DNA of 64,000 bases from Urechis unicinctus (taxonomy: Eukaryota > Annelida > Polychaeta > Xenopneusta > Urechidae), in NCBI GenBank assembly GCA_034190875.2, contig CM067349.1, positions 12,487,595-12,551,594 on the forward strand. The letters are read 5' to 3'. Position numbers and translations under genes: made by a program. Below the pieces are notes generated by a model. That model ran no database searches. It was not told where the DNA came from and saw only the letters and a program-made list of their open reading frames with translations. This document shows, piece after piece, positions 6,826 to 64,000 of this stretch; the stretch's first letter is position 1, and every line of letters starts with the position of its first letter.

Positions 6826-7221
6826 TTTGAATGCTGGTTAGGTAATGTTAGCCGATTGCTGTTTTTTTCTTATTAGACGATTGCTGGTTCGGTCATATTA
6901 GCCGAATGCTGGTTTGGTCACGTCAGCTGATCGCTGGTTAGGTCATGTTAGCTGATTGCGTGTTAAGTCATGTTAGCTTATCGCTGGTTTGGTCATGTTA
7001 GCCTTTTGCTGGTTAGCTAATGTAAGCTCATGGCTGGCTTAGTCATTTAAGATGGTAAGGTCATGTAAGGTGATTGCTGGTTACGTCACGCTGGCCGATT
7101 GCTTATTAGGTCATGTCAGCCGATTGCTGATTAGCCCATGTTTGCCGATCGGTGGTTTGTTCGTATTAGCCGATTTCTCGTTAGGTCATGCTTGTCGATT
7201 GCTAGTTTGGTCATATAAGCC
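6826..7221. repeat. 25-bp minisatellite, about 16 units
   Basis: Units read in register every 25 bases from about 6,851, with consensus close to GCCGATTGCTGGTTAGGTCA plus TGTTA. Starts are at 6,851, 6,876, 6,901, 6,926, 6,951, 6,976, 7,001, 7,026, a short unit near 7,051, then 7,070, 7,094, 7,119, 7,144, 7,169 and 7,194. Units differ from one another by several substitutions, so the array is not recent. Copy C keeps only about one and a half units (56,405-56,443), and copy B lacks the surrounding segment. Confidence 0.9.
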
Positions 7222-20140: not shown

Positions 20141-20605
20141 CTCGCGACAGCCTTGACATATTTTCTTGTCAGAATTGCATTTGCTACTATAGGCACCATT
20201 CTTTTACAACTCGCGACAACCTTGACATGACATACCATTCTTGTCAGAATTGTTGCTGCTTTTGCCATTTAATGTTACAACTCGCGACAGCCTTGACATA
20301 TCATTCTTGTCAGAATTGTTGCTGCTTTTGGCACTTACTTTACACTCGCGACAGCCTTGACATATCATTCTTGTCAGAATTGTTGCTGCTTTTGCCATTT
20401 AATGTTACAACTCGCGACAGCCTTGACATATCATTCTTGTCAGAATTGTTGCTGCTTTTGGCACTTACTTTACACTCGCGACAGCCTTGACATATCATTC
20501 TTGTCAGAATTGTTGCTGCTTTTGCCATTTAATGTTACAACTCGCGACAGCCTTGACATATCATTCTTTTCAGAATTGTTGCTGCTTTTGCCACTTACTT
20601 TACAC
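20141..20605. repeat. 64-66-bp tandem repeats in element leader
   Basis: Seven units start with CTCGCGACA at 20,141, 20,210, 20,281, 20,345, 20,411, 20,475 and 20,541. The core contains CAGCCTTGACATATCATTC and a GAATTGTTGCTGCTTTTG block. From 20,281 units alternate two tails (ending TTTACA or TGTTACAA), and the 130-bp dimers 20,281-20,410 and 20,411-20,540 look identical, so dimer units were copied recently. Located between the hydrolase ORF and Gag, they may hold promoter or packaging signals. Short frames running through them are not genes. Confidence 0.95.
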
Positions 20606-20942
20606 TACTTTACTATTCCTCTGGTCACACTCGCTTGCTGCTATCTCCATTGCATCCATTGTGGTTGTTTCTCTAACACATTGTGGTTGTTTCCTAACAC
20701 ACAACTATCCACACCTTGATCAGTATATAAATTTTCAAACAGCCTTGACATTTCTTCCATGCCACACAATTTAACTACATTTGGCAACAGCCTGGTCATA
20801 TTTTACTTGTCAAATTTGTCGCAGCTATCGTTAAAAGTTTTGCATCTCACAATCAGTGTTTCTAGGCACAGCCTGTACATCTTTCTGGCCTGTTGTTGTT
20901 CAATATCTTCCGGACGGACTCTTGATTTTTGTTACAGCAGAT
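20606..20942 (+). promoter_or_regulatory. Gag leader with degenerate repeat remnants
   Basis: Decayed versions of the leader repeat (AACAGCCTTGACATTTC near 20,739; CAGCCTGGTCATATTTTACT near 20,788; CAGCCTGTACATCTT near 20,870) continue up to the Gag start. A 15-bp word, TTGTGGTTGTTTC, is repeated near 20,660 and 20,682. No promoter element can be named. Confidence 0.4.
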
Positions 20943-22217
20943 ATGTCTGGAAAAGGTGTAAAACGGCCTTCGAACGCATCCCAGCCACCTAGGAAGTCCA
21001 ACAGACCAAAACGCCCTTCTGTTAGGCTACCCGTGGCTGCTTCAACCGCCTCCACGTCAGTTGCCACTCCACTCGACCATGACCAACCCATCACCACACA
21101 TCAGTTGTCGTCCCCACCTGCCACAACGCAGCCAGACAATCCAGCAGACACAGTCAGCCAGCTCTTTTTTCGGGTTGACCAGCTTCAATCAACAGTGGCT
21201 TCACTCACCAACATTGTGAGCGATATGGTGAAGACACAATCTGCTCAGGGCTCATCTCAACCCAAAGCCCAGGTCCCATCATTGGCTCAGCCAGAGCAAA
21301 TTAATGTGGAAGACACTACTCTTCAGCCTCCTGTCGAAATTAACTATGGTGAGAACAATTTGTCCTTTCTGTCGGCCACCTCTCAGCGCCCTGTTCTACT
21401 CTCCAGTGGAGTCAGGGCTGGCCACCATCTACCAGACAAAATCAAAATCAAAATAGCCACTGATAAGTACGTGGACTTTCACAACATCGTTCACCCAGAC
21501 GCTGACCAGTCATACTCCATGAGCCTGGCCGGTCCCTCGGATGTGCCTGTTCTGAATTTTGCCCCCAAAAAACGCCGCCCCCTCACGGAGACCGAGTGGT
21601 GTGCAGCATGGGACGACTTTCTTTCCATTTATTCCGAGGCACATCCACATGAACTGTCAGACCTTATCACCTATGGGAAGTCCATCAAAAACCTCATTAC
21701 CCGCCAGCAAAATTGGCGTCTTTACGACGAGCAATTTAGGAAAGACCGGGAGCTAACCCTTTGCTCGTGGGCTTCGATGAGGCTCGACTTGCAAATCCTC
21801 TGCTCCCAAACAACACCTGCTCCCAACCCTCCTACCAATGCCCAAACCACTTCTTTTCGTCCCCAAGAAAACTTCACCACCCATGTCCCGAAAGGGTTCT
21901 GTTTTCGGTTCCATTCCGCAGGCTCCAGGTGCCCTTCACAAAACTGCACATTCAAACACACTTGCCCTAAATGTGCAAAACACCACCCAATCTTCTTGTG
22001 CCAAGGCAACACCTTCAACACCACCAAAACCAACTTCTACAAGCAAACAAACCCCTCACAGCCTCGAACTGCCCCCGTGCCAAACAACAAAGCCAATAAC
22101 TGCTCCAGGGTTACTCAAAGCAGCAGTTCATTGTCGATGGGTTCCGGAAAGGGTTCTTCATTGAATTTTCAGGCAACAATAGCCCCCTTCTTTCAAACAA
22201 CTCCCAATCAGCCATAA
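20943..22217 (+). CDS. Retrotransposon Gag-like protein with CCCH finger
   Basis: The frame stays open upstream to 20,856 but only from a GTG. The first ATG, at 20,943 (MSGKGVKRP, G at -3), gives 424 residues. The N-terminus is basic and proline-rich. A short amphipathic helix around residues 72-98 (FFRVDQLQSTVASLTNIV) could form a coiled coil for oligomerisation. Near the C-terminus, residues about 320-353 carry Cys-x9-Cys-x4-Cys-x3-His followed by Cys-x2-Cys, His and Cys, the nucleic-acid-binding cluster usual in Gag of DIRS-order elements. It would bind the element RNA and form the particle in which reverse transcription occurs. Its stop codon overlaps the next start as TAATG. No internal break was seen. 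Confidence 0.85.
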   Translation: MSGKGVKRPSNASQPPRKSNRPKRPSVRLPVAASTASTSVATPLDHDQPITTHQLSSPPATTQPDNPADTVSQLFFRVDQLQSTVASLTNIVSDMVKTQSAQGSSQPKAQVPSLAQPEQINVEDTTLQPPVEINYGENNLSFLSATSQRPVLLSSGVRAGHHLPDKIKIKIATDKYVDFHNIVHPDADQSYSMSLAGPSDVPVLNFAPKKRRPLTETEWCAAWDDFLSIYSEAHPHELSDLITYGKSIKNLITRQQNWRLYDEQFRKDRELTLCSWASMRLDLQILCSQTTPAPNPPTNAQTTSFRPQENFTTHVPKGFCFRFHSAGSRCPSQNCTFKHTCPKCAKHHPIFLCQGNTFNTTKTNFYKQTNPSQPRTAPVPNNKANNCSRVTQSSSSLSMGSGKGSSLNFQATIAPFFQTTPNQP

Positions 22218-23635
22218 TGCAACCGCATATTGTGCAAGAAAACATACTCAATGAAAAGAAACTAGGTAGAATTCATGGCCCGTTTGTTACACCCCCCTTT
22301 CCCAATTTCAAATCCTCTCCCCTTGCAATAAGAGAAAAGTCCCAACTAGGAAAGTTTAGGCTGTTACATAACCTCTCTTACCCCTATGATAGCTCTTCAG
22401 TCAATTTCAATATCCCTAAATCTGCCTCCTCCACACATTACTCATCCATCCAAGACGTCTTTGTCTTAATACAGCAGGCGGGGCCCAAACCTTACCTCGC
22501 AAAGTGTGACATTGCGGAAGCTTTCCGTATAGTTCCTTTACATCCCTCACAGTATAACCTTACTGGTTTTTATTGGGGGGGTTACTATTATGACAGTTGC
22601 TTACCCATGGGATGCAGTAGCAGTTGTGCTATTTTTGAGGAGGTCTCTTCCGCCATCCTCTGGATTTTAGAAAACAAAAAGGGCATCCACACCATAGTTA
22701 AAGTGCTTGACGACTTTCTGTTCGTTGCCCCCTCCCAAGCACAATGTCAGCGCATGTTAGACATTTTCACCCAACTATGCATTCACATCGGGGTCCCCCT
22801 AGCTCCTCATAAAACTGTCAACCCTACCACTGTCCTCACATTCCTTGGAATAGAACTTGACACCATTGGCATGGAGGCCAGATTGCCACTTGACAAACTA
22901 CACAAGTATTCAGGTCAAATTCAAGATGCAATTCAGCTTAATAAAATCACCTTGCGACACCTCAAATCTCTCATCGGCATGCTTCAATTTGCATGTACAA
23001 TCATTACACCAGGAAGACCATTCCTTAGGCGGCTGCACGACTTGCCTATACACACACACAAACCCTTCCATTACATACGCTTAACTGCTCACACTAAAAA
23101 AGACCTTAGCACTTGGCTGCAATTCCTATCACATTTCAACGGCAAAACTATCATGCGTCAGATACATTCTGCCGACTCCCCATCTCTCCACATGTTCTCT
23201 GACGCATCTAAATGGGGCTTTGCAGCCACTTATGGTTCAAACTGGCTTCAAGGGGCCTGGCCGGCCTCATGGACCAATTTTGATATTACCGTTTTGGAGC
23301 TCTATCCTATCTTCCTTCTCATAAGTGTCTTTGCTGATAAAATTTGCAACTCCCATATTATATTACACTGTGACAACCAGGCAGTCGTCCATATCCTCAA
23401 TAAACAGACAGCCAAGCACCAGGTGGTTATGTCCATTATCCGTTCACTAGTCCTCGTCCTCCTTCAACATAATATCCGCCTATCTGCTGTGCACATTCCA
23501 GGTATCGACAATACTGTGTGTGATTTTCTGTCCCGTCAGCCGGCTACCCCACAAGCATTGGCTCGATTTGGGATGAAGTTGTGCCCGACATCCATCCCAG
23601 TACACCTGCTACCAGCCTACTTTGTCGGGACTTAA
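22217..23635 (+). CDS. Reverse transcriptase-RNase H polyprotein
   Basis: 472 residues from the ATG at 22,217, which shares its A with the Gag stop. RT: an N-terminal GPFVTPPFPNF block, SPLAIREK, FRLLHNLSYP, the motif A aspartate D98 in KCDIAEAFR, LPMGCSSSCAIFE (motif B, about 129-141), and catalytic D165-D166 in VLDDFLFV. RNase H: D329 in MFSDAS, E361 in LELYP, D386 in HCDNQ and D436 in CDFLSR, a full DEDD set. No protease, integrase or methyltransferase is present. The product copies the element RNA and removes the RNA strand. The frame is uninterrupted and all catalytic residues are retained, so the enzyme may be functional. Confidence 0.95.
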   Translation: MQPHIVQENILNEKKLGRIHGPFVTPPFPNFKSSPLAIREKSQLGKFRLLHNLSYPYDSSSVNFNIPKSASSTHYSSIQDVFVLIQQAGPKPYLAKCDIAEAFRIVPLHPSQYNLTGFYWGGYYYDSCLPMGCSSSCAIFEEVSSAILWILENKKGIHTIVKVLDDFLFVAPSQAQCQRMLDIFTQLCIHIGVPLAPHKTVNPTTVLTFLGIELDTIGMEARLPLDKLHKYSGQIQDAIQLNKITLRHLKSLIGMLQFACTIITPGRPFLRRLHDLPIHTHKPFHYIRLTAHTKKDLSTWLQFLSHFNGKTIMRQIHSADSPSLHMFSDASKWGFAATYGSNWLQGAWPASWTNFDITVLELYPIFLLISVFADKICNSHIILHCDNQAVVHILNKQTAKHQVVMSIIRSLVLVLLQHNIRLSAVHIPGIDNTVCDFLSRQPATPQALARFGMKLCPTSIPVHLLPAYFVGT

Positions 23636-24534
23636 AGAATCTTTTGGGCTCATCTGTCAAAAAGGCCACTTCAGACACTTATTTTCACCATTGGAGATTG
23701 TTTCTGCATTTCCTATCTTCCCACTCCATTCCAAACAAAATGCCCCCTTCATCTTATACTTTAGCTTTGTTCGTCACCTACCTCCGGAACCAAGGCCTTA
23801 AACACACCACCATCCGCACGTACCTCTCTGCCGTCAACTTTGTGCTCAGCCTTAAAGGATGCTCCGACATCACCAACTCTGTGCTCGTCAGCAAAGCCCT
23901 CCAAGCAATTCAACAGCAGGGCATGCAGGGGCAGGAAGGATTGCTTCCTATCACACGCACACTGTTGCACAAACTAATAGACAAAATTCCGATCATTACC
24001 AACAGTTTCTACAACCAAATCCTGTTCAAGGCTCTCTTTCTGCTTACGTTCTATGCCTGCATGCGGGCTGGTGAGGTGGTTTTGTCGTCCGATTCTCAAC
24101 ATGTGCTAAAAATCCAAAACCTCAAGTCCGTCAGCCTTGGATCCAGCCGAGGTTATGAAATCAATTTTGATACTTTCAAACACAGTAAATCTCAGGTCAA
24201 AACTGTACTGCAAAAAGGATCTTCACCTCTCTATTGCCCAGTTCTTGCCTTGGATGCCTTTCTCGCTGTAAGGCCTCCCCACGATGACCAGGTGTTTGTC
24301 CTTCACTGCAAACAGCCTGTCACCCGCAATATTTTCGCTAACATCCTTAAGCGAAGCGTTGAACTGTCAGGTCTGGACCCTATTCGATTCAACACCCATT
24401 CGTTCCGAATAGGGAGAGCAACGCAGCTGGCACTGGACCAAACCCCACATGCTACCATCCAATCAGTGGGCAGATGGAAAAGCGCAGCCTACCTTCAGTA
24501 CATCCGGCCTGCACACGTCGCGCTCCCACCATAA
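23524..24534 (+). CDS. Tyrosine recombinase (retrotransposon integrase)
   Basis: The frame opens after a stop at 23,521-23,523, overlaps the RT-RNase H frame by 112 bases in the -1 phase, and ends at 24,534. No ATG precedes the core: codon 23,581 is GTG and the first ATG (23,740) would remove part of the N-terminal binding domain, so recoding or reinitiation is likely. Numbering from 23,581 (317 residues), a core-binding domain with VTYLRNQGLKHTTIRTYLSAV precedes the catalytic domain: R162 in CMRAGEV, H273 and R276 in HSFRIGRAT, W299 in GRWKS, and nucleophile Y307 in YLQYIRP. All catalytic residues are present. It would insert the circular DNA copy by site-specific recombination, so no target-site duplication is expected. 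Confidence 0.93.
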   Translation, partial: FSVPSAGYPTSIGSIWDEVVPDIHPSTPATSLLCRDLKNLLGSSVKKATSDTYFHHWRLFLHFLSSHSIPNKMPPSSYTLALFVTYLRNQGLKHTTIRTYLSAVNFVLSLKGCSDITNSVLVSKALQAIQQQGMQGQEGLLPITRTLLHKLIDKIPIITNSFYNQILFKALFLLTFYACMRAGEVVLSSDSQHVLKIQNLKSVSLGSSRGYEINFDTFKHSKSQVKTVLQKGSSPLYCPVLALDAFLAVRPPHDDQVFVLHCKQPVTRNIFANILKRSVELSGLDPIRFNTHSFRIGRATQLALDQTPHATIQSVGRWKSAAYLQYIRPAHVALPP

Positions 24535-29433: not shown

Positions 29434-30003
<570 letters not shown>

Positions 30004-30009
30004 GAATAC

Positions 30010-33000
30010 ACATATATATTTGGTTTAATTTTACTGCACACAATATGTTCCCTGGATTGATTGTTCCTTGGAAAATCACAATGTCCCATCTATAACTAAT
30101 GCATCACAAATAATGATGTGCTACACAAGCAATATGCCGTCAAAGACGAGATACATGTAGCGCGAGCACATACACATAAATGCGGTACAGATATGTATTA
30201 TACACTGAGGCGTCAAAAAGTACATATGTTACATCGTATGAAATAATGGAAGAATAAGGCGATTATGTTCATATGCGATGCGTAAAAGCCACAACGATGG
30301 CGTTGAGTACTGCCTGTATGCGGGTTAAGACAATTCTTACAGATACGATGGACACGGTGCGCCCGGAATATCTGCGGATGGATGCGATTTTAAGTATCGA
30401 AGCTTTGCATGTTTTTGATAAATACTGCTAGAGCAAAATTTACGACATGTGAAATGTTACAAAAGACTAAAGCATTCATAATAACAGGCAACATATGCTA
30501 GCTTCAGTAGTCAAGCACAACCCACAAGCATGACCCGCAACTGTAACGTCAATGTCTCTTCCTTTATGAGGATTTAACAATCAAATGAAAATTGTTATTT
30601 CTTTTATGCTTCTTGTTGTTCATGCAGTGACAATTTCGCTATTGATATGAGGTCCTTTGTTCTGCTTTGCAAAGAAAACATTCCCAGTCGAAATGCACTC
30701 GACGCAGGGTCTGTTCGATGAGAACGTAAAATAGCGTTCACCAAAGGGCTGATGTTGCAGGCTGGCTGATAACATATCTCACGGAGCTACGAAGTACGGC
30801 GCTGCCAATTAGTTTGTCAATATATCAAATCGAATCGTAGTAGTTGCAGAATTAAGTTCATATTTCTCATACGTTTCCCGTCTACGATGTAATGCAGTAA
30901 AAATTCCCAGACTGTATACAAATGAAGGAGTTTGCATGTGGTGATATATTAGAGTCAAAAAGAGATCAATGATAATTATAAAGCATAAAACTCACCACAC
31001 CTCACACATACTGCTACACTAACTGATTCTACTGGTGCAACATTTCTCCAAAAATGCTTCATAATGGGTTTTTAGCGGGATATAACATGATTCATATTGA
31101 CTGAATTATGGCACGTTTTATACAGCAATTCGCTGTCAGACATTTAATTGATGCTGAAAGCTGTTTTCACAGAGCTCTGTGACATTTAAAGAAAAATAAA
31201 GTAATTTTGTTCCCTAGTTATGATGCATTAACCTGATCTCATCTTAGCTTCCAAGCGTTACTATGGGGCAGCTAATACTTTGTCACTATCGCCAGGAACT
31301 TCAAACGCTCATTCACAGAGATGAGAAGGTATAGACCTAAAGTTTTATTGGGATGCTGTATAGATTCACTTGAGGAACTTGCAAGAGTTAAAACTCAAAC
31401 AGTTTGTAAATGGATAAGGATGTGAGTAAATGAAACACTGAGACAGGTTATTGTGGCTATCAAACTAAGCAATTGGCGACTAGCGTAGGGTTAACATTGT
31501 GTCGGCTTATAATAACACTCGAACAACACATAAGAATTTTCATATCCATAGGATAATAAGCACCTCTTAATTCTGCTACAACACATTCAAGGGGAACTTG
31601 TCAAGCTATTGTGAGGGAGAAGGAATGGGCGCGGACTAAAAACACTGGCATTGAACACCGGCCAATTAAATATGTTGACCTTTTTTAAGATTTGTGCTTC
31701 GCGAATTCCGAAGTAATAGGTGGGTGACAATTGCAAAGCTGGAAGCTGGGTTTACCGTCGCATTCTTCTTGTCTTACCGCCAACTCATTGAAAAGCCATG
31801 CTGAATTGATCATAGCACAATCAAGTGGCGTTAAGAGAGAACATAAGCAAGAATATATCCGCAAATACCGTCCTATAGAACTGGAAGTGCTTCATGGCAA
31901 GTGATACCTGAATCGTTCTTACTTTTGATGCAGAGGGCATTTATGTAAATTTATGGCGGGAACAAAAGACGCTATTGACATATCATTGAAGTTTATCTGA
32001 AACATGAAATATTCATTATCAATCGTCAGCAACAACAACTGCAGAACCGAATGGATTTACAAAAGGCAGTAAAAACCGACACATGACTACCAAACGCATG
32101 GTTCATCGCTGATTAACATTCATTCCGGTCGGAAGCTCCGTCTGTCTGACACAGAAGGGAAACAGATGAGCCAATAATCAATAAGGTTGCAGTTGCTCAA
32201 TAAATAATTGATAAAAAGAAAACCGAATTATTTTACAGACCGTTATAATAATGATAAGACAATAAGCATTGTGCTTATTATTGTGTCTATGAAACCGTGG
32301 CAACAGCTCAACCCTTTAAGAACAAGCCTTTCTTATCTTGCCGCTCTCAGGTCATGACAGTCTTTAAGGTCATATATAATTTGTTACCTTTCATGAATAA
32401 GTTTCGGGGAAGCAATACAAATCAATTGTTTCTATGAAGTGCGGAGCCGGAGGAACAGACCCTACCCGGAATTAAGCCGATATGGTGGATGCATCTACAA
32501 TTGGTGTTCGTGTTATTGACCTTCATAAAAATACGTGCAAAGATGCACATCATAATCCGTAAACCACAAAGTAATCGGAAAAACACAAAGCAGGACCTTC
32601 ACTCTGTGGTTATGAACGGCTTTGCATCGGGAAAGTAAAAACATCCACCAGGGAGCCAGCTCACGCGGAAATTGTATACGAGATGCCGCTTGCTGTTGTG
32701 ATGACGATATTTGTTTGTCTGGCCAAGTTTCAGCCCTTGTGATTCCCATTACGTGATGTAGACGTGCAATCGCTGTAGCACGCTATGACTAAATAGAACG
32801 GTTGTCTTTATCAGATCTGTAAGTAATGCACCCGTCCAATCATTCTGAAATGAGATTTGCGCCGCGATAACTGCCTCTAAACATTGTTCACCAATTTCAA
32901 TAGTGTCCTTGCCGAATATCAACGCATGTGCAATTCAAGTATACTGTGGTATTGTTATTTTCTGTCTTTGATGTGACCATAAAGCCCTGTGAAACACGAC

Positions 33001-38959: not shown

Positions 38960-40069
38960 AAGCGGCGTTGTTAGTTGATTCATAAACCAAACGTGAGAAA
39001 GCGTGCACTAAAGCAAATTATTTACTGAGTTAATGGAGATATGAGAGAGCAAATGGCAGGGGTCATCAATCACGAAACCGCAGTGTTCAACGAACCGCTG
39101 GTCTAGTCGGTCCAGTTATAGAGTGGCGTTTATGCTGGCGGCACAATCCGATATTTACTAGCGAGTGAAAAGGCATCACTCTGTAATTGGTGAGCAGCAG
39201 GAAGGAAGTGTCACACACCTGTCAGTAGCTACATTTTGACTGTAAAGTAAACACTGGAGTGCTATACCTTCACTGGGAACCAAATCTAAGGTATTTGACA
39301 ATGCATAGTTGCACCATCAATAACGCTGCAGTAATATGCTTCTGCACGGATCTCACGTATCACCATTGTCACAACGTTATAATACCAAATGAGACATGAC
39401 TTTGGCGTCGGCTTCAAACAGGCAGGCAATGCCGCCAACACACGCACGAGAACCGATTTACATAAAGGAAACAGTTGTTGGATTTTACCTCTAGTTAAAC
39501 ATCACATCGCCGAAGAGAAGATACCGAGGCCATTTATCAATCGGAGAGGAAATAAAATACTAATCTTATCCACTTTCTTGCCTGAAATGGTTATATCTAC
39601 AACCAATACCTCTGCAGCTAGGTCTATGATAGACTGTAGGCACACTCTATATGGCGTTGTAGCTGTAGACGACAATACAATGGGATTTATGGATTGTCGG
39701 ATTCTGTGTAATGAGAGCCTCGTTAAATTTCCTCGGAGCTTTGCTGAACGCTTTTGGGCTGTTATCTTTCAAAACTGGAAATTATATTAATACCAACCAC
39801 CTGCATCAACATATCACGCTATTTAATGCAAATTCAATTGTAGTAACACTGGACGCACGAGAATAGGCTAATATCTTGTTGTATAGTGCTATAGCTTCCA
39901 TTTGATGGCAAGGTAACACCTTGGAGTTTAAAGCTCGCCTTTGATGACACATGAATAACTTACATGCATATTTGGAGGAAACGAATAGAGCTTGATCAAA
40001 TAGCTGATTGGCGGGTACGATTATGTGTTTTTCTAGAATTTGCATTAAATAACATGTATACATATACAT
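38960..40069. other. Segment private to copy B, one unrecognised 133-codon frame
   Basis: About 1.1 kb with no counterpart in copy A, which passes directly into its AT array. It contains a plus-strand ATG frame at 39,389-39,790 (133 codons) with no recognised motif. Whether it was inserted in B or deleted from A is unknown. Confidence 0.5.
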
Positions 40070-45010: not shown

Positions 45011-48000
45011 CCAAGTACATTCTTTACGTATATTGATTGGTTATCATTTCTGTCAAGTAAAGGGTTGTAAGGGAATCTCATTAGGTGTTGTCCTTGTCCT
45101 CAGATTGTGAGAAAGTTTAAAAAAATATTTTGTTATGAATTCGATATCACTCGTGCTAACAGGAAGAGAATGTACCGCATTTTCAACGGTCAGTTTGTAA
45201 TGCCATTCCAAAAAATAATCGTCGTGTTTTCTTCCATTCGTTTTCAGGTTAATATTACCATCGTTGTGATATCACGTCATACTGTTTTTCAATAAACCAT
45301 CAACATGGCTTATCGCAGCTAATTTTATCATGTTGGAAATATTAGCCAAACCCTGAAGAATATCAATCATCTACAAGCAGCCAAAACAGCATAAAGGAAT
45401 AGCAATAGCTATTTACAGCGATGTGTTATTCCTTCAAGCTATCGGGAATAGTAATTCCTTGAGCTGGCCTAGTAGCCACCATCTTGGATTTAAGATGGCC
45501 GAATTCGTAAGGAATTCTATTGGGACATCGCAAAGAGGACTGAAATTACGACCCTGATATCATTGTTCGCCTTATCTACAATAACAATTTCAACCATACA
45601 TAACCAAGCAAGAATGAAATCACTTCTCTATAGTAATAGGAGCTGTCGAGTAAAAGCTATACTATCTCTGATGGATGACAAATACATAATTAATAACATC
45701 CCCTCGTTCATCGTCATATAGAGCTTGGTCTAAAGTGTAGCTGTCAATCACTTCTGTTAATCTCTACAGTTAAATTCACGTCCGTGTGATAACTTGCATA
45801 CTACACTTGTTAATCCGAACATTTATTCCAGCAAGTTTATTCCTGTGTAGCTATATAATTATCATGTGAGAATGGAATGAAGGTTTTACAATGGATTGGT
45901 TACGCCTGTGAAGACGTATTAGCCGATTCGCTGCATGTCTCCATGTATGTTAGTGAGTGATCCCAATGCTAAGGTCAAGACGTTAAAGATATCATTTAAA
46001 AAATGAACTCACAATCATATCCCCGAAGATATTGTTTCACGCGTATGCTAAGCGTGAAAACTAAAATCCGTGCACTGTTACAGAGCTTGAATTACAGATC
46101 GACCGTAGGAACGACACTGACTATAACAGTGTTTGATTTATTAATATAGCGGAGTGAAATATCACATTGTTGCAAGTGTGCTTATTGCCGCAAGTAATCG
46201 ACACATCAGACACAGTCCAATCAAGGATTGTAATGCACAGTGAGCCGTCTATTGCATTAAAATCATCTGTTTTTCGAGCAAAGAATGATTCAACATTGCA
46301 AAATTCATGTTATTATCTGAATATGGGTTTCTGTGCACCAGCGTACAATACAGAATATACATGAAAGGAATTACAATATTTGTCCAAATATATTACTAAA
46401 ATCACATTAAAATATATATAAATTCAGCAATTCGAACAAATCGTCCAGATTATGATTACAATAAAGGTCGAACATATGTAATCAAGTACCGGTTGCAAAC
46501 ATTTAGCGTGGGTACGGTTTACCAGTTATTCGTGTCCATTACGGATACAATATGAAAATAAAACTGCGGTCATGCATCATTTTCTGGGGTTGAATACCTT
46601 CGTAACCAGTAAGACGTTTGCAGTACAAACCTTCAAGAGGAATGATGCAATAGCTAGGATCATGAATGATATGTTTTCAAATCACATCAACTTGTAATGT
46701 AATTCCTAGCTGCGGGTTATGGCCACATACATTGCACCACCGTCGATATTGGCATAATGTATTTCGCATGAAGGTTAATATGCTATTAACCTCGCTATTG
46801 CTGAAGGCACGTTTACTATTAACGGCCGACGCTTAGTCCTTTTTCGCAATTTAAACTTTTTATGTAGATGGGTATTTCTTAGGCTACCTACAGCGTTTGG
46901 CACGATCCCCCTCATTGACGAGTTGCCGTGAGCGCAAGTTACTTCATCCCTTACGTCATTCGTCGTCGTCAAATGATCTGATACGATAACTGTCATGCAA
47001 CTACAAATGTTTAGCATAATTTTGTTGTTGTTATTCATGTAATATTGCAGCTATATATGCATTCATATGATATGAGGCAGCCACAGTAACTCGAAGTGAC
47101 AACCTCGATGATTTAAGAGATTGCTAGATGCAGGGTTAGTGGTTAGTGTAACATTTGCGGTGTAGTGTTGGTCGAACAACGAAGCAATTGGATCTCGTCA
47201 AGCCTGCTGTTGTACGACATTCTAGCGCACACAAAAGTGCTTATAGGAATTTCCCCCCTGCGTTATTTCTTTTATTTGATCCATGCACTGTTAAGCTCCT
47301 TGCGAAATCCTAAAGCCTAGGAAATTAGGAGTGGATACCTCGCTCAACTGCAAAATCATAAACTCTCCAAAATTACTCGTAATCTTATTATTGATGCTGC
47401 CGCGGACATAATATCAGGCCGTAAGTTCCAATAATTAAAATAAGCCTGAAGCATACATGCATGGATTGATATTCACGGTCGTGGACCTGTACGAGGCGTC
47501 CTACGTTCGGTCTTTGTTTGAATGAATTCGTTTACTTATTAGCACTATGACGGTAGCTACTGAAGTGTAACAGACGATTACCGTATATTTGAGCTAGGTG
47601 GAACGTTATTTGTGTTTGTCTTTGCGGTTACGCGACCTTGATCGGCCATCTAAAAATATTACTGCATTCTTTTTCTACGCCAGGTTATCATAATGTTCCG
47701 TTTTGAGTAGAGGTTCTCTTCTTCTGCAAAAGTTCTGCAGTCGGATGAGGAAATCATTGATGACTTGATAAAGCGCAAACTAATCACTTGGATATTTCCA
47801 TTTAACGATTACATGCTGTCTGATTTCAGTTGTATATATACACGGCTCCTCTTGCTGTGTGCAGTACCAAGTGTATTATGCGCCTCTTAATGTTCATTGT
47901 ATCATGGTTGTACAACATTTGCGACCCATTGTTCTATAGCTATTCCAGAGAGACAGTGTCCACATTGGTTGTCAGCGCAGAACCAAAGTGCTACCCAATC

Positions 48001-50920: not shown

Positions 50921-53539
50921 AAGAGTGATGGACTGCGATAAAACTTTATCAATATAATGTTTTCCCTTGGTGTACCTTCGTTGTTTAATTGACTTAGGCG
51001 TCGTTCTCAGGAAAACATAACTTCCAGCAGAAGTATATATTCATGATTCTGTAAAGTTCTCGAGATACATGCATTTGTCACCACAAGGAAATGCGAATTG
51101 GTGTTTCGTTGTTGTCATTTAAATCAGGTGGATATTTGCATTATTTGTTGCCGACAGAGAGGGACAAAGCGATTTCTGATCACCAGGTGCGAGGCCTCAG
51201 CATACAGCATAGTACAGGCTCACCCGTCGCGTTACGTTTAGCGTCATGGTATTCTTCCATGCGCACACATTCGCTATAAGACCATACTTGACTGCACAAA
51301 GAAGCTCATATCATCCTGGTGCTGACACATTGGCCACACAGCTATGTTGCTGTTTTGGATTTCATTTGATTAACGTCCAGCCTGATCACGACTACCAAAG
51401 CTGAGACTCTGTGACAATTGAAATATGAACTCCGGGAATATGATCAGTAATTTTTTGAATTTTGTAGGGTTGCAAGCCAACACTGACATTCCCTTAAGCC
51501 AAACCATTAGTTTCGAGCTGGTATGCACCTAAGTTGCAAAGCTGTTACTCGAAGTGAGACAAGATACCGCATACGCCGACCTCTAAGTCATCTGTTTAAG
51601 CGTCACAGCGAATTCGATATTACCAAGCTAAGACTAAGGGTAAGCAGCTGCTATTGATTGCACGACTCAAGTTGGAGTTACAGTAATATGAGTGCGAATA
51701 ATTTATTTTTTGGCATGATAACTAGTCCATAAAAACGATGATGGTTTGGCAGCTGTCAAACCTGCAGAAAGGATAATCAGCTTTGATTGCTAGAAATGTT
51801 AATGGAAATTTCAAAGGCGTGTATCAATTACTATCAATTCTATCATGAGTGCATGGGTGCGTATTTACATCCGATAGAGCCTCCTGTGACATCAAGACTA
51901 TTGGATGTATATTGCAATACCTCTGTTCTCTTGGAAGCATTGCATTGTTATTTATTTTTCCCTCGGCATCAAGGTTAATAACAGTTTATTTTTCGGGCCT
52001 TATATTCAACTTGCAGCATACTTGCATAGATTTGTTGATACAATATAAATCGTCCACCAGTATGGAGCATTCGATGAATGCCACTGTTGTGTTTTGCGAA
52101 GTTTGCAATCCGCTATGTGAGAAACCGGAGCAGTTTTATGGCCGATACTTCCGTGGTCACTATAATTTATGGGACAACGCGGAACAGCCTCCTGCAGAAT
52201 TTGCGCTGTTATCAACGACGAACAGTAGCAGGGCAGGGTATATGTCAGCCTCATATACGACAGAAATAAGACAAGTAACTGCTAGCGTAAAGTCGTTTCT
52301 TTCCACATAATGACGTATTTATTAGCCATTGCATTGTATAGCAAAAGCCTACTAGGCATTAATTTGACTACAGTAAATAGCCATTCGCACTTAGGAACTT
52401 TACCATTGATTTAACGACAACAGCCATCCACTGTTATACTTATGCTGAGACTGCGAAAGAAACATATATGAGCTACCAAAAGTAAATGTGGTGCAGGACC
52501 CACAAAATGGCGGTCGTTGTATTAGCGCGCCTTGTAGGAGATGTGATGAGTGCTAATAAGCGATGAGAAGTTTATGATGAATGTATCAGGAACATCATGT
52601 TGAGCAATGATGGTATTATTGTTCTGCCTCGGTAGCAGATGGTCACTGTAACCTCCTTCTACTATTCCACCTCGAAAACTGGTGAGTGATGAGGAACGTA
52701 TCATGCTACTGACTCTACGACTTACGACTTGCTAGTATGATTAACACCTTATGCTGATTAGCGTGCTTACCTAAAGGATTTATATACAAGCCGAACACGT
52801 TTAAGCATGCACTAATGTACCTTTGTAAGATTGCACTGTGTTATAAGGGCGAAGCGTCCGCACAGGATTATGTAAGAGACATAATTCGATATGCAGATGC
52901 TATTCTAAATTTTATCTAAAAGCCTCTTTACATAACCAACATTTATGCATTTGATATGTCAGATAACTGCAACCACTAACTGATATGTGACAGTAATGGG
53001 AGCCCAACACCAGCTTTAAGGGAGCACGTTATGATTGCTTCCTATTGGTCGCCGCTGGAACATCACTAGTATCCTGCTCGCTGGTTTATTGCTTTCTATT
53101 TCAGAAAACGTTTGCCACAAATACGTCAGGACATTCTAGTTAGTGACTGCATTCTGTTACATGATAGCCATTTCATAAGGATAAATCTCCTGCTATGACA
53201 CCTGCAAAGCGTCAAGGATATTTCGTTTTATTACCAATAAATATTTTGGCTGAGAGGGCAACAGAAGCAATAAGCAATGTTGGCCGTAGCATTACGTAAC
53301 GCTTGGTGGGAATAAAGGGGTAAGTTGGCTGGTGATATTGTGGGCTGTGGGAGATGTTTTGACTGCTGCTATGAAGTTTTGCGGGAAAGAGGTGTCTACC
53401 ATCAGGCAAACAAGCGTTGCATAAACGAATCACTGATTAAGCACTATGAGGGTATCCTGTAAGATGAAATCCTCGTACATTACTTTTCATATCATGTATA
53501 ATGTAAACTACCTTATTTATGACAGCGCCAAGATATTAC
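50921..53539. other. Sequence between copies B and C, unrecognised
   Basis: No transposon motif or reliable gene. A plus-strand frame at 51,849-52,310 begins with GTG and is unrecognised. A short stretch near 53,060-53,090 resembles 36,990-37,020 (ATCCTG-CCGCTG-TTTATT), hinting that part of this interval is an old relative of the DNA left of copy B. Confidence 0.4.
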
Positions 53540-56500
53540 AAGTAGGAGGAAACCAATTAGTCTAGATGGCAACAAAGGGATACCACAGACCGACGGATCT
53601 GTGAAACACAAGTCGGCTTATGAAGATAGATCAATTGTTGAAGGATCAGTGTTTGAAATCTCGTTGCATCTTTTGTGCACCAAATATGCTCGTCGGCAAA
53701 TGTCGCTTTTGCCTATTAACATGCAGTAGCGTGACTCGATTTTTATAGACTGGGACACAGAGAATATATAGCGGGTAAAATATTTGACGGTGGATAGTTT
53801 TCAATGATGTAAAGTTTCCGTGAAGCCATATCGTGTTTAGTAAGACACGACATGGTTTGCACGCATCGGGCTGCATTATAGACTAAGTATTCCCTGATAT
53901 ACTTAACTGCACTAAATATATGATAATAGCCAAGAAGTTCAACCCATTTTACTGCATTTGCATATTCCGAATGTTTGTTCACCTCACTACGATATGGTTT
54001 GACGACACTGAGCCAGCTTCTACCCGTGTAACCCACACTAAGCACAACAACCATAGCCACCAACATAGAAGCTTCAGTCAAATAACAACATCAATCCTCG
54101 AACACTTCAAACAACCTCTATGCATTTTCCCAGTTTTTAGCATTGCACACATTTCAACACCTTTCAAAGCGAACCTATGAAAGACATCCGAGGCGAATCA
54201 GAAATAAAGAACGACTGATGTTGAAAGTGTCGTTTTTGCTTCTACTCCAAAAAAATGCAATTGTATTAAATAAAATCACTCTGAAAAACTAAAATTCGAA
54301 ATGGGCCCGTCAAAGTAGATTGCACTTTCTACGCTTACTTTGGTGTTAAGAGGGTTACGTCCGATTCAACGCCCCCTGATATCATCTGAGGCACACATGC
54401 GCAGTAGTGGTCATTGAAGTTGCTAAACCTTTATTTCGTCCTCACCACCGACTGTCGAATGAATTTCTCCATTTTCAAAAATTGTATATCTCTATAGAAT
54501 TAATGCAGTTCGGTAAATGCCTAGTTACTTCTGCAGTGCGACTCAAACTTTGAGGTAATTGATATCAAATAAATGAAAGTGACTGATATGCAATATAGGC
54601 CGACTATAATGGTATGTAAATCACAGCTTCCGAAGTAAACGGATGCCACGATCTAAGCAGAGACAGCGCGTCGTTAGTGTCGATAACATCAAGTCCATTT
54701 GGGTGGCACCCACTACATGGGCCGTTACGATGTCTGCGCAATTCACTGATCCAGGCCGCTGTATGGACGTGAGGTAAAAAAGACATGCACAGCATTCACT
54801 TAAGCATTTGATTTATTTCTGGATGCTTTTAACAATAGTGAATTGTAGGCGTTAAATTAACTGGTCTTAACTGCAGCTCGACATAAGACATTGACAGATC
54901 GCCGCGTGTGGCCCGTTCCCGACAATGACAACCATTAACCTGTATGAGAATTGCTTTTAGAGACGTGGACGAATGACGTTAGTGCCATTGTGTCAGCTGA
55001 CACAGTGGGCTGCGTATAGTTGCCGGAACGGTTGAGTTATTTACAAGTGAGGAGTGTGTTTCATATAACGCCCTGATGGAGGTAGGTCGACAACTCTGTC
55101 CATAATATACATACACCGTGTATCCACATAAAATATCTCATGGCAGCCTCACCAGCTGTCAGAGGGCCAATATCTATCATCTCTTATCTTAATAACCCTT
55201 CTGACGACCAGCATATTATCGACACCAGGTGAGCAGGTCGTGGCAATAGGTAAAAGTTGTCTGGTGGGTCGCGGCGGAGGAAAACACGCGAGTACATTTA
55301 ATAAAAATGCCATGTTTTACATGACAGGTCATATACCGAGGGAAATTTAGCAACCTGTCAATAGTACAACACCTTCTCGACCAGGAGTGGGAACCCAACA
55401 CCCCCGCGATGCTGGCACTCTTGGCTCTGTCTTAACCAATGACACATGTAGGCTTTGTGTTTTAATTGCTATTGCGCACGAAAAAGAGTCGTGCCGAATA
55501 ACAAATATCACAGTTTGAGAAAACCGATTGTTTCACTCCTCTCATTGCGAGCTTATCAACTGCATTGTCTGAATGTCCGTTGGGCAATCTGGAGAATGTG
55601 AGGGGGACCAAATGCGTTCAACACTGTGTTTCACACAAAAATTGCATTGTATAGCTCTTGCTACAAGGCATCGATAAGTATCATGGACAAAGTGATATAA
55701 GTATGGACAAAGTGCTGTAAGCAGGTCCCTTTGAAAATGCAATAAAAATATTTGTCGTTGTGTCACTTTATAAGCACACTCTACGTGATAAAGTTCTCTA
55801 AAGACGGCAATAAATTTGAAATTTTTTTGTATCAACAATAAATTTTCCAATGCTTTGCTGAGCGCTAACGTAATCCTAATTGGACAGCCAACACTGGATA
55901 TGATATCAAAGCTAACCATCGGTGTCACGATGACGTTCTCATGAACGTTAACACAACATATGCGAGTCGCTCTACACGAGCAATCGGAATAAGTTATCCT
56001 CAGGCGAAAATGCTACAGCCACAACTTGATAGCCAGGTAGATCCGTGGGGTAGCTTGCTCGCATCTTACTAGGAAATGATGGAAGCATGATTTATATGTT
56101 CATCGGAAATATACTGAAGCCAAGATCGCCTATCCGCGAATGTCGCTTCACGTGATACAGTTTATAATATCTTGTTCGGACGATTATTAAGGCTGTTTAT
56201 ATCCAAGACACAAATCTATCCAAGCTCCACCGTCTCGCAATATTGGTAAAGTATGGCCTAAGCATCCCGGTACGCTAATATGACTCACAGGCAAGGCACG
56301 TTTGAGGCTTGACTCGCAGAACAAACCGCGTTTTGCCTGTTAACGAGCACGCCTCCATTACATTACACACAAGCAAACATATTGTAATGTTAATCGCGGC
56401 CCGTTAGATCATGTTTGCCGATTACTTGTTAGGTCATATAAGCCATACGTTGCTTACGCATTGCAGAATAAGCCAATTTATCGTCGATCATATTCTCCCA

Positions 56501-57534
56501 TAATATGTAAAGAACGCTATCAAATCATAAGGTTCTGGCGTAATGCAATCGAATCATAACGATCGGATGATAAGCAATTGAAATATATATAAGGGCAATG
56601 TGCTGCTGATGTTTAGGTTTATACTGTTTAAAACAGTTCAGTACGATTTCATACGGTGGTGGCGTATAGTTTTCTTACATATATTCAATGTAGTTATTTA
56701 TTTTATGCAATCATTCTGCTACAAAGATGATAGTTGCCGTCTTCACCTAAGCAAACAAATAAAATCTTGAGCAATGTTAGCTGACAGAAACTCTGTCCAC
56801 TGACGATCAGTAAAACACTCTTAGTAAACCAACTGACGGATTATTTAACACGTTTACGGTATTACAAAATAGTGCACTGACATGGTGTTCACCAGTCCGT
56901 TTGCTGTATAGCATTGGCGCACTGGCCAACGGAAGCTGCGTGGAATAAGGAAGACATGGCCGTTATATGTGCTGTTCGAAGTAATCGGGCTGGCAGTCGA
57001 TTGCATGAATTAAAAAGAGGCTACAATGCATGTTTTTTTTTTGCGTAGCATTTGAAGTAAAATAAACGCCAGCAACTCTTTGTTATGTACGTAGTTACGG
57101 GATTTCCTTTATCTAGCTCAGTGTTCTAGGATCTTGTTATCACGTGGGGGAGTCCTCATTATAAGAGAGCACACATTGTAAAGCTTTAAAACACTTGAAT
57201 AATGTTTGCCTACTTCTAAACCGATGGTTGTAAAATGATTTCCGACAAACAGAACACACACTACCAATGGAGCCTGCATTACCTGTATGATTATTTGAGC
57301 CATGCTTGCGCTACAGCTGTTAAAATGTGTAGCACAGTCACTCCCGTACTAACGCTTCGTGGTTATTATCTACCTGATGCCGCGTGCTCCATAGACCGAG
57401 TGATGGAAAGGGAAGTCTGGTTCGGCATGAATTCCTCATCGAGAATCAACTGATTGGCAATGCCTATGCCAGAGAAAAACGTGTAAACGAAATTCAAATG
57501 CACTAGCAAAAACAACAACTTCTTTTCTCTCAAT

Positions 57535-57660
57535 CACCCACTCACTCACTAAATCACTAACACACTCACTAACCTACTCATTCATTAACTCACTCACTCA
57601 TTCGCTTACTCACTCACACACTTGCTCACTCACTCACTTACCTACTAGATCACTAACTAA
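57535..57660. repeat. CTCA tetranucleotide array (copy C)
   Basis: Same position and flanks as 8,035-8,165 and 44,715-45,010. Confidence 0.9.
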
Positions 57661-59801
57661 CCCAAGCACTTAATCATTCTTTCAGTATATCGATTGGTTA
57701 CATTTCTGTCAATTAAATGGTTGCAAGGGAATCTTTTTAGGTTTTGTTTTTTTCTTATGATTGTGAGAAAGTTAAAAAAAATTATTTTATGAATTCGATA
57801 CCATTCGCGCTAACAGGAAGGAAAGGTACCTCATTTTCAATGATCAGTTTGTAGTGCGATTCCAAACACATATAGACATGCACTCGTTGTGTTTTCTTTC
57901 ATCAGTTTGCAGGAGTATATTACCATCGTCGTGATATTGCGTGGACATGCTGTTCAATTAACCATCAACAGTTGTTTGACACACGGGGCAATCAAATGAC
58001 TCTTATCGTCATGAGTGAAATATCTATGGCTTACCGCAGCTCTATTTATCATGTTGGAAATATGAGCCATTACAAATGACAACCCCCGATGAATTTCAAT
58101 CACCAACAAGCAGCAAAAACAGCAAAGAATGTGTCAACCTACGACATAAAGGAACAGCAATAGCAATTTACAGCGATGTGTTATTCCTTTTAGCAATCGG
58201 GAAAAGTAATTCCTTGAGCAGGCCTCGTAGCCGCCATCTTGGATTAAAGATGACCGAATTCGTATGGAATTCTATTGAGACATCGCGAAGAGGACTGCAA
58301 TATCATTGTCGCTTTTTATCTACAAAAACAATATCAGCCCTACATAGCCAAGCAAGTATGAAATCACATTCTTCGAGTAATAGTAGCTGTCGAGTAAAAA
58401 TTATACTATCTGTGATTGATGACAAACAGTAATTAACACCACCCAACTCGTTCATCATCATATAGAGCTTAGTCTTAAGCATAGCTGTAAGTCATTTCTG
58501 TAAATCTCTACAGCTAAATTCACGGCCGGTTGATAACTTGCAGACGACACTTGCTAATCCGAACTTTTATTCCAGCAAGAAATCTAGTGTAGCTATATCA
58601 TGATCATATGAGAATGGAATGAAGGTGTTGCAATGGTAAAATTTCAACTGGACGAGGTTCGATTGGTTACGTCTGTGAAGGCGTATTAGCCGATTAGCTG
58701 CATGTCTTCCTGTATGTTAAGTGATGTAAACTCCAATACTAAACACCAGACGTTGAAGATATTGTTTTAACAATGTACTCACAATCATATCCCGGAGGAC
58801 TCATATTGTTTTACGCGTATGCTAGATGGGATCACTTGTGTTATACTAATAACCGTGCAGTGTAATAGAGCTTGAATTACAGCTCAACCGTAGTAACGAC
58901 ACTGGCTATAACAGTGTTTGATTCATTAATATAGCAGGGTGAAATATCACATTGTTGTAAGTGTGCTTATGACAGCAAATTGCTGCAAGTAATCGACACA
59001 TCAGACACAGTCCAATCAAGGCATGTAATGCACAGTGAGCCATCTATTGCATTACAATGATCTGTTCATCAAGCAAAGAACGATTCAACATTGAAAAATT
59101 CATGTGATTATCTAAATATGTGTTTCTAAGCCACAGCGTATAATTCGGCATATACGTGACTTTCATCGAAAGGAATTACAATATTTGTCCAAAGATATTA
59201 CTATAATTACATTCAAATATATTTATATTCAGCAATTCGAACAAATATTCCAGATGATGATCACAATAATGACCGACCATATGTAATAAAGTACCGGCGC
59301 AAACATTTAGCGTGGGTACGGTTTACCAGTTATTCGTGTCCATTACGGATACAATATGAACATAAAACTGCGGTCATGCATCATGTTCTGAGGTTGAATA
59401 CCTTCGTAACCAGTAAGACGTTTGCAGTACATACCTTCAAGAGGAATTATGCAATAGCTAGGATCATGAATGATATGTTTTCAAATCACGTCAACTTGTA
59501 ATGTAATTCCTAGCTGCGGGCTATGGCCACATACATTGCACCACCGTCGATATTGGCATAGTGCATTTCTCGTTAAGGTTAATAAGCTATTAACCTGGCT
59601 ATTGTCGAAGGAACGTTTGCTATTAACGGCCAAGAAAGGCTCGTACCGCACTATATCGACCGATCGTGTTGGATATACACCAGTCGACGCCTGCTGATTG
59701 TCTCTTTTCGCAATTTAAACTTGTTATGAAATTGAGTGTTTCTTAGGGCTACCTTAGGCGTTTGGAACGAATGCCTCTTATCGACGAGTTGCCGTGAGCG
59801 C

Positions 59802-60149
59802 AAGTTGCTTCATGCTCCACGTCATTCTGATACGATAAACTCTCATGCAACTAGAAATGTTAAGCATAATTTGTTGCTGTTATTCATCAAAATGAACAAA
59901 ACCTTGATGTAAATGTAATATTGCAGCTATATATGCATTCATATGATATTGGGAAGCCACAGTAACTCGAAGTGACAACCAAGTTACTTCATCCCTTACG
60001 TCATTCGTCGTCGTCAAATGATCTGATACGATAACTGTCATGCAACTACAAATGTTTAGCATAATGTTGTTGTTGTTATTCATGTAATATTGCAGCTATA
60101 TATGCATTCATATGATATGAGGCAGCCACAGTAACGCGAAGTGACAACC
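59802..60149. repeat. Tandem duplication at a recombination junction
   Basis: Unit 1 (59,802-59,980) and unit 2 (59,981-60,149) both run from AAGTT-CTTCAT to GAAGTGACAACC. Unit 1 has the copy A form: the extra CAAAACCTTGATGTAAATG block, ATATTGGGAAGCC, AACTCTCATGC. Unit 2 has the copy B form: no such block, ATATGAGGCAGCC, AACTGTCATGC. Copies A and B each have a single unit here (A 10,320-10,520; B 46,932-47,102). Confidence 0.93.
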
Positions 60150-63100
60150 TCGATGATTTAGGAGATTGCTAGATGCAGGGTTAGTGGTTAGTGTAACATT
60201 TGCGGTGTAGTGTTGGTCGAACAACGAAGCAATTGGATCTCTTCAAGCCTGCTGATTTAAGACTTTCTAGCGCAGACAAAGGTGCTTATAGGAATGATCC
60301 CCCTGCGTTATTTCTCTTATATGATCCATGCAATGTTAAGCTCCTTGTGATTGGCCGCGAATACGTGAGAATGATTCAGTGCAACTTACAGAATTAGTGG
60401 TCTTTCGTCATTTGTTAAAGCCTAGGAAATTAGGAGTAAATACCTCATTCAACTGCGAAGTCATGGATTCTCGTATCCTATAATTGATACTGCCGCGGAC
60501 ATAATATCAGGCCGTTAATCTCCCGCCTTAAGATAATTCCAATAATCAGAATTAGCCGGAAGTATACATGCATGGGTTACTATTCACGGTCGTGGACCTG
60601 TACCGTGTGTTCTACGTTCGGTCTTTTTATGGAATGAATTCATCTTCATATCAGCACTATGGCAGTAGCTACTGGAGTGTAACAGGCAATTACCGTACAT
60701 TTGAGCTAGGGAGAATGCTATTCGTGTTGATCTTCGCGTTTACGCGACCTAGATCTGCCTTCTAAAATATTACTGCATTCTTATTCTATGCCAGGTTATC
60801 ATAATGTTCCGTTTTGAGTAGAGTTTCTCGTCTTCTGCAATAGTCCTGCAGTCGGATGAGAAAATCACTTGGATATTTCCATTTAACGATTACATGCTGT
60901 CTGATATCAGTTCTCATATTTACAGTGCACCAACTGCTTCGTGCAGTACAAGTGTATTGTGCGCCACTTAATGTTCATTATATAATGGTTTTGCAACATT
61001 TGCGACCCATTTTTCTATAGCTATACCAAAGAGACAGTGTCCACATTGGTTGTCAGCGCAGAACCTAGGTGTTATCCAGCCCTTCCCCCTTGCATATCAC
61101 AGCCCTAAGGGTTTGTCCACGTGGGGACGTTTGCAAATGCATGCTACAGAGCTGTGTATGAGAGTACAAGCAAGTTTTTTGCAATACTTCTGCTTTGTCA
61201 GACGGCCGAAAATCCCACACACTGTAGCGCTGATCAATCGACAACGTATTATATGTACGGGCGTTCTCCAATGTTTTTTATTCAAGCCATCTCTTAATAA
61301 CAATCTATAAATTAGCAATTACATATTTAACACCACATAATATGTCTGCGTGGTGACACCCGTTAACTTGTAACTGCAAAAACAACTACATATATGGCTA
61401 AAACAAGACATTGACGCAATCTCCGTCGAACATAACAAGCGTCCTGGATTGCCTTGCTTAGAATGCGTAGTATCGTCATTGTGTGGAGCTAAGCTTTCAA
61501 TCGGGTACTAATGAACTGCATGTGCTAACAGTCAGTTTTACTAAAATAACGATTATTGGAATCAAATGGCGAGACTGGTGCAATTATCTCTGAATGGAAA
61601 TATCTTGCGTGAGTTTGACCCTATTAAAAAGCAGCCTCTGAAGTGTAACGATATGTAATAATGTGTAAGTTTGTGGTGGCATGTTACAATGATTGATTGG
61701 GAGGTAGGGAGAATCAACCAACAAATTATGTTCATTGCAAAATTTATTTGCCAAAATATAACGCTGTGAGATTAAATCATCATCTCGCATCTTAGATATT
61801 CGTAATATCTGTAATTTGAAAGTTGAAGCCAATTTCTTGGAAACCAACCTCTTTGTCAACTGGTGCCAAAAAACAGAGCGCGTCCTGAGATGAATGCAAT
61901 CAACGATGAAAAGCGATGAATGATTGATACGTTTCAACTACAAAATCAATGGAAACAACCCTCTACTGGGCAGTCAATGTTACAGAAGAAAGCTGGGAAT
62001 ATATTCGCACTCAGAACAATCTAGAATATGTTCTGGCTGTCCCAGGTTACCTTAAGTAGCTCTTAATATTGCTAGTGAGTTCGATGAGAGTTCAAGTGAG
62101 AGTTCAACAAAATAGCCAAGCATTAGACAATTTGCTTATTCATCTGAATACAGCACGGTTGCTACATATCATACAGATGTGCAGAACGTAATAGATTATG
62201 GTTGTGCGCTCCTTGAACCCCCAGAAATAAGTATTAATCAGCAAAATATCGAATTCCAGTGGACATTTCGAACAGATAAATCTGACATCAGAGTATATTG
62301 TTACGAAATTTGAACGTAATTGTTATAATTGGAAAGAATTAATGTTAAAGTTAGGATTCGACACTTGCTTGTCAAACAATGAACACCCCCTTAAGTGAAC
62401 GTTGCATTAATGCTGCTTTACTAATTGGTCGAATTCTGCAAGCGAGCTGTATACTTCCTAACAACGTTTTATAAGTTCTGCGTGGCTCTCTGCATGCCAA
62501 GAATGCTTGGTATTGTAATGACGCAAAGTATGTTATTGACTATTGCCCTATCTTACATGGATCATTGATGAAAACACGTCGGCCGCTTCGTCATATTGTC
62601 GATGTGTCGCTTCACTTCAAACAAATGGTTTCACTCGGGATTATCTAAAGTATATTACGGCTGGAGGAACACAAGAACCCCGTAGCTAATAGTGCTTCGT
62701 GTGTAAATGTAGCAGCCACTTTGCGTCTTAAAAAGTAAGATGAACGTTATTCAGATCACGTCAATAGATAATTTAATTATTAACTGCGTGTCCTAGCCAG
62801 GAACAATGAGCTACGTTCGTTTTCGTCTCATTGCATATCTAACGAACCTGGGCTTTTTGCAGAGTTAGTTGGCTTGTAGGACAGCAAAATTGCATTTCGC
62901 CGGGTAGACTGCGACATATTTGAGAAAGACGGTCGCACTTAACTATGAGTAACCACTTTTATTAATAAATACCAGCGTGGCAATTTGGCCTTCTATCTGT
63001 GCCGTTGCGGGCCGCTTTCAGTATTAACTCGTTTTTAGTTCTAATGCCATTTCTGAAATTGTCGACAGAAAAGGCAAACCATGTGGGCTTTACATCTTAC

Positions 63101-64000
63101 TTTCTACGCAGACAGAACATGTACTGTATAACAAGACTTATGCATAGGACAAGTATAACATCCAGCGGACGCAAACAATCTACAGGGCCAGCTCAAATCT
63201 ACACAGGTCGCATATTTTCCTGTTCTCAGTTTCATATAGCTCATATGACGACCAACTACAGGGCTCGTCGCAAAAGCATCCTTCTGTATTGTTTCACGGT
63301 GATCTGGGCCTATTTGCAGAGTTGATAATTACTTGCCAACTATTATGGCCAAACTACTTGAAATAATTGACATCAACGGGATATTTTCTCCATTACATGA
63401 AGATAAATTGTATGCAAAATACCGTATCATTGGCATTGGAGAAAACAAGAGGCGGATAATTAATCAACTACCCTTGGCTCCAGCGATTATTGTCGTAGGA
63501 ATAGTGTTTGGCAATAAACTAAGAATGTGATCTGCACCGCCTCCAGTTTCTATGATTCTTAACTGTGCTGTGTTATCAAACTTAAGTGACTGTTGCTATA
63601 ACTAAGTCTTTAATCATGGTTATTTTGAATCCATACAAAAGTGCTGAATGGTAGTATAACATATCCCATATCCCTTGTATATGAAGCGTGGAGACCAATA
63701 CTACATAGCATTTGCATTGGATTTCAGCTCAACCACTCCATCCCCCTACCGAAAACCCATCTATAGTGCAGGCACCCACAATTGGCCGCGATTGCCTTGG
63801 CATGAGATAATGAAATCAGGAATGGAAGATTCTAACAACACGGTGCTTTCTGTATTTCGTTAATTTGTAGTCCCGAGTTCAATGTGTTGGTTATCTGCCG
63901 GGATCTAACCTACCCTACAACAGTAGTCTTCACACCATAGTGCCATAGATATGTCGTTCACTCTCTTGTAAATCAGTTCTGCAAATTATCATTAACTAAA

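Follow-up and report, generated by a model that had tools for sequence, protein, structure and literature searches.

The closest described systems for the locus analyzed here are unequal crossing-over (NAHR), microhomology-mediated template switching (MMBIR/FoSTeS) and interlocus, or ectopic, gene conversion. Local duplication typically yields adjacent head-to-tail units whose break shows almost no homology. Published conversion tracts between paralogues cluster towards 50-200 nucleotides in Caenorhabditis, with a mean of 223 bp and a range of 136-361 bp in C. remanei (PMC3966223).

The DNA examined is a stretch of 64,000 nucleotides (C8:12487595-12551594, hereafter the window) from an assembly of 1.19 Gb. 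It sits within a cluster of large duplications, comprising the copies A, B and C together with partial and far copies (Table 1). Copy C carries two adjacent versions of a unit that is single elsewhere, and a short patch of B-like sequence begins at about their junction. Our data make it very probable that this patch results from a recent, short and non-reciprocal copying of B, or one of its close relatives, into C, from ~59981 to ~60250.

Table 1. Copies of the duplicated cluster and features of the unit pair (positions in the window unless indicated otherwise; + before a number, right of the window).
Feature	Position	Strand	Remark
Copy A	from ~15.8 kb left of the window to 12.5k		
Copy B	14.5k-52.5k		
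Copy C	53.5k to ~65.9k		
Copies D and E	near +122-127k and +138-141k		inverted, partial
Copy F	near C8:1.06M		far copy
Single unit of copy A, counterpart of the pair in C	10320-10513	+	
Unit 1 of C	59803-59980 (178 bp)	+	C's own version, apparently distantly A-allied
Unit 2 of C	59981-60149 (169 bp)	+	B-derived version
Tandem junction	59980/59981	unspecified	1 bp common to both joined places
B-like tract in C	59981-60250	+	98.5% to B over 270 sites
Counterpart in copy B, single-unit stretch	46936-47205	+	likely donor, or sister of donor
A-like tract in C	57780-58105	+	98.5% to A, 82.5% to B; 0/1000 permutations
A-like tract in C	58636-58894	+	96.1% to A, 81.7% to B; 0/1000 permutations
A-like tract in C	59561-59704	+	93.1% to A, 77.4% to B; permutation p 0.002

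The duplicated cluster and the unit pair

Outside the patches, the mutual identity of copies A, B, C and F is mostly 80-88%. At 58895-59560 identity among the copies A, B and C reaches 91-92%, yet only ~82-83% to F, and we regard this segment as a patch common to the three, via older exchange or constraint. To the right of the window, D and E share a 500-bp stretch (+127262 to +127761 and +136722 to +137221) that is 98.6% identical, exceeding the rest of D versus E (88-93%); a third match to this stretch, of ~93.5%, is located at +93941 to +94444.

No gene was recognized in copy C using Pfam, Rfam, ARAGORN and reading of the frames by eye. Frames of at least 45 codons in 53000-66500 were compared with the other copies by eye, without a formal test; for most of them the matched stretches contain stops, or the protein identity is below the DNA identity. 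Some short frames are free of stops in the matched stretches (e.g., 65410-65544) and might represent a small exon. Pfam identified no family at E <= 0.1 for four frames of C (55545-56012, 59160-59498, 58019-58429, and 62969-63322) and two of B (39383-39787 and 51849-52307), and neither Rfam at the gathering threshold nor ARAGORN (bacterial code) returned anything in the window.

Three overlapping open frames of a retroelement, which we take to be DIRS-like, are found at 20835-24531, with Pfam matches to a reverse transcriptase (RVT_1, E 6.3e-10) and a tyrosine recombinase (Phage_integrase, E 2.4e-7). The first of the frames has no Pfam family above the cut-off, and this stretch of B has no match of at least 200 bp in A. 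Just left of the frames lies a tandem array with a 66-bp unit, also listed with a period of 130 (20141-20606). Other repeats include a long, imperfect and at once palindromic (TA)n tract (29473-30019) and a 25/50-bp tandem array in A (6832-7221), situated mostly where the blastn match to C breaks (6690-7178).

The adjacent head-to-tail units that the preliminary description claimed for C are real, with unit 1 followed directly by unit 2. Using the B unit and the A unit as blastn queries, against C and a 1.4-1.9 kb stretch of each of the five other copies, we found two places in C and one each in A, B, D, E, and F, where the match to D and E starts only at unit position 33-35. As the unit is single in all five other copies examined, the two-unit state is derived in C. 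The 26-base sequence spanning the junction occurs once in the assembly at up to two mismatches, and unit 1 has a private deletion of ~17 bp. The junction also places a 7-bp inverted repeat, from the two ends of the unit, within 14 nt (59961-59988); the DNA there shows nothing unusual in its folding (z -0.30).

Ancestry of the units and extent of the B-like patch

Unit 2 differs from the unit of B at 2 of 169 positions (98.8% identity). Both carry a derived 27-bp deletion and share the bases at 59993 and 59995, none of which is present in A, unit 1, D, E, or F. Unit 2 can firmly be assigned as B-type or B-derived. The 27-bp segment itself was considered as an A-type marker and rejected, as the stretch kept by unit 1 and A is the ancestral state.

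Unit 1 had been described as A-type, which raw identity does not bear out: it is 90.3% identical to the unit of A (17/176 mismatches) and 92.0% to that of B (12/150), the A and B units being 91.0% identical to each other (15/166). At the sites where A and B differ by substitution, unit 1 matches A at six and B at nine. Its identity to unit 2 (91.3%; 13/150) even narrowly exceeds that to A, one of the findings that the preliminary description named as refuting its reading, and here the tree points in the opposite direction. In the maximum likelihood tree of the seven units, unit 1 groups with A (support 85/88) and unit 2 with B (83/82), which is moderate support for both; a sister pairing of units 1 and 2 is rejected (p-AU 0.009), and a grouping of unit 1 with B and unit 2 is only just rejected (p-AU 0.049). 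Four derived bases are common to unit 1 and A (59842, 59950, 59951, and 59954), the last three so close together that they may represent one event. Judged by these sites and the tree, and not by raw identity, unit 1 appears to be allied to A.

A plain local tandem duplication of the unit of C, followed by divergence and with no exchange between copies, would account for head-to-tail adjacency and for a break with almost no homology. It is nevertheless scarcely credible, with the two units rejected as sisters and with unit 2 carrying the derived deletion of B at near identity to B.

Between the last derived base of A type (59954) and the first one derived in unit 2 and B (59993) lies a stretch of 38 bp (59955-59992) that holds the junction. 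The predicted change of affinity at the junction is upheld in so far as ancestry switches within this stretch; unit 1 as a whole is not B-derived. One derived base, at 59967, is common to unit 1 and B. Its value as a B-type marker is ambiguous because the matching base of unit 2 (60136) is ancestral, B and unit 1 sharing another. Were 59967 B-derived, ancestry would change 14-26 bp before the junction is reached from the left, and B would be the source of the sequence on either side of the join.

The identity between C and B is 98.5% over 59981-60250, where 4 of 270 sites differ, and 86.9% over the next 100 bp. Three-way alignments cover C at 53541-55279 and 57020-62250 and provide 6074 ungapped columns with 1314 polymorphic characters. 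In a fragment test on these columns (mismatch penalty 2, 1000 site permutations), the sole significant C-B fragment was 59963-60189, with none of the 1000 permutations as good. A three-state HMM, run with two switch rates and hand-set emission values, recovered the same four tracts in C as the permutation test, and the rest was neutral, including 59711-59954 and 60255-62250. The three longest exact matches between C and B in 53500-64000 (86, 69, and 80 bp, in a ranking that left out matches without one of the four letters) lie on one diagonal at 59980-60241, an agreement that does not depend on any alignment. For the query 59700-60300, B is the best of the seven matches listed besides the query itself, and on that listing B, or a sister of B, is the likely donor of the patch.

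Within the tract, 60161 is a base common to C and A, against B, D, E, and F. Slow evolution was considered as the source of the 98.5% and rejected, since the identities of B to F (86.5%) and of C to F (86.1%) in the tract are ordinary. The tree of 59981-60250 for the six copies does not resolve the fork of C, A and B, although C and B sit on short branches in it (0.008 and 0.007) and A on a long one (0.098). A stretch of ~56 bp to the right of the unit is present in B and C and missing in A; it was discarded as a derived marker of B and C, as D and F have it and E has it in part, indicating the ancestral state. The right end of the tract is in register, and its left end lies within 59955-59992, together with the out-of-register junction. 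A piece of B misjoined into C by the assembler, which tandem repeats can mislead, is barely plausible given the four differences from B in the tract and a window without any N; the sole N run in the 204 kb looked at is at +98501 to +103500.

The other three tracts in C are A-like (Table 1), and in the tree of the tract at 57780-58105, C groups with A (95/92); in that of 60351-62250, C, A and B are not resolved. Their number, with lengths of 144-326 bp, indicates that patch transfer recurs in this copy. Two A-B fragments are also below 0.05, at 61649-61761 (0.003) and 61323-61355 (0.02).

Proposed crossover, probable copying and the number of steps

The preliminary description explained the pair by a crossover between misaligned units, with C tracking A left of the junction and B right of it. 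Exchange between copies did shape the pair and unit 2 is B-derived, but a crossover is unsupported and the B-like sequence is a patch of ~270 bp. C tracks A on the left in three separate patches and B on the right over that same short distance, whereas the flanks of the tract are neutral between A and B on both sides: 15 sites with C=A and 15 with C=B at 59705-59980, and 106 and 96 at 60251-62250. A sliding comparison of identity, expected to favor A left of about 59,980 and B to its right, fails in the 276 bp that border the junction on its left and past ~60250.

A reciprocal unequal crossover in which an A-like copy exchanged with a B-like one, leaving a left arm of A and a right arm of B, is consistent with an ancestry switch at the junction, and over the left block as a whole (57020-59980) C=A at 247 sites versus C=B at 108. 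However, it predicts a B-like right arm for kilobases, and the B-like patch spans ~270 bp. Past 60250 the affinity to B is gone, and C and B are 81-84% identical in the pieces that match between 62558 and 65754. Moreover, as the joined places share just 1 bp, the break is not one of homologous crossing-over between misaligned units. The divergence of unit 2 from B is far below that of unit 1 from A (2/169 versus 17/176; Fisher p = 0.0006), thus the two halves of the pair have no common date. The 270-bp limit contradicts a crossover, save for the case of a second exchange that brought back the former right arm, and we consider this origin very unlikely.

Non-reciprocal copying of a short piece of B accounts for the patch as well as for its age and neutral flanks. 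In our best reading the process was interlocus gene conversion or a template switch, with the left end at the tandem junction or creating it. We infer that the direction was from B to C. The reverse, in which the second unit of C overwrote the single unit of B, would be compatible with the pattern in that identity alone has no direction and the shared derived states could have arisen first in C. It would presumably require that the duplication had happened, and that unit 2 of C had acquired the shared derived changes, before the transfer, with unit 1 staying unlike it, and is highly improbable. Counting against copying of B into C, conversion alone leaves the nearly homology-free left end unexplained; there are also the conflicting bases at 60161 and 60136/59967, the moderate tree supports, and the one tree in which the fork of C, A and B is not resolved.

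The number of steps and the enzymology are likewise matters of inference. Copying of B may have occurred as one event, which we put forward tentatively, at somewhat less than even prospects: the tandem unit would have been duplicated and given the neighbor's version at once, through an out-of-register entry and an in-register exit. Repair synthesis would start from an end in C at the close of its unit, switch with nearly no homology to the start of the corresponding unit of B, copy ~270 bp, and return in register, leaving a duplicated unit and a B patch. Alternatively, and with a lesser though appreciable likelihood, a local duplication of the unit of C came first, and B then served as donor for an ordinary in-register conversion of the second unit, which would halt where homology ends, at the junction. 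This two-step history also expects the tract edge to coincide with the junction, and the present data fit both histories; we have a slight preference for one event, since no second step at the same place is then needed.

The locus provides a well-resolved example of copies in a tandem cluster that swap patches of ~140-330 bp while the remainder of each drifts, and in which an apparent crossover point may mark no more than where a conversion patch ends. Had a single event produced both the duplication and the conversion, the tandem duplication would have been born already diverged, and dating of tandem duplicates by unit divergence would mislead. If this is general, young tandem duplicates with old-looking units would be common in duplicated clusters.

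Comparison with known systems

Similar to unequal crossing-over, the locus shows misaligned copies and a hybrid head-to-tail structure in C. In contrast to NAHR, the distal arm is not exchanged in C, as the affinity to B ends near 60250, and homology at the break is absent. In joining out of register, with 1 bp shared and a nearby copy as template, the locus resembles MMBIR/FoSTeS. A microhomology of a few bp is expected at such a switch, and the 1 bp seen here is a length that chance often gives. The other end of the patch, unlike in these processes, returns in register in homologous sequence, as in conversion.

The short near-identical patch on a diverged background, non-reciprocal and with a size inside the published range (PMC3966223), is like interlocus gene conversion between tandem paralogues. 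The tract stands above its flanks against site permutation (59963-60189), in agreement with the HMM, and the flanks keep their own ancestry (15 to 15, and 106 to 96). The left edge of the patch differs from such conversion in coinciding with a tandem junction that has almost no homology. Overall, we consider the patch in C a clear case of a known process, interlocus gene conversion, with an unusual left edge.
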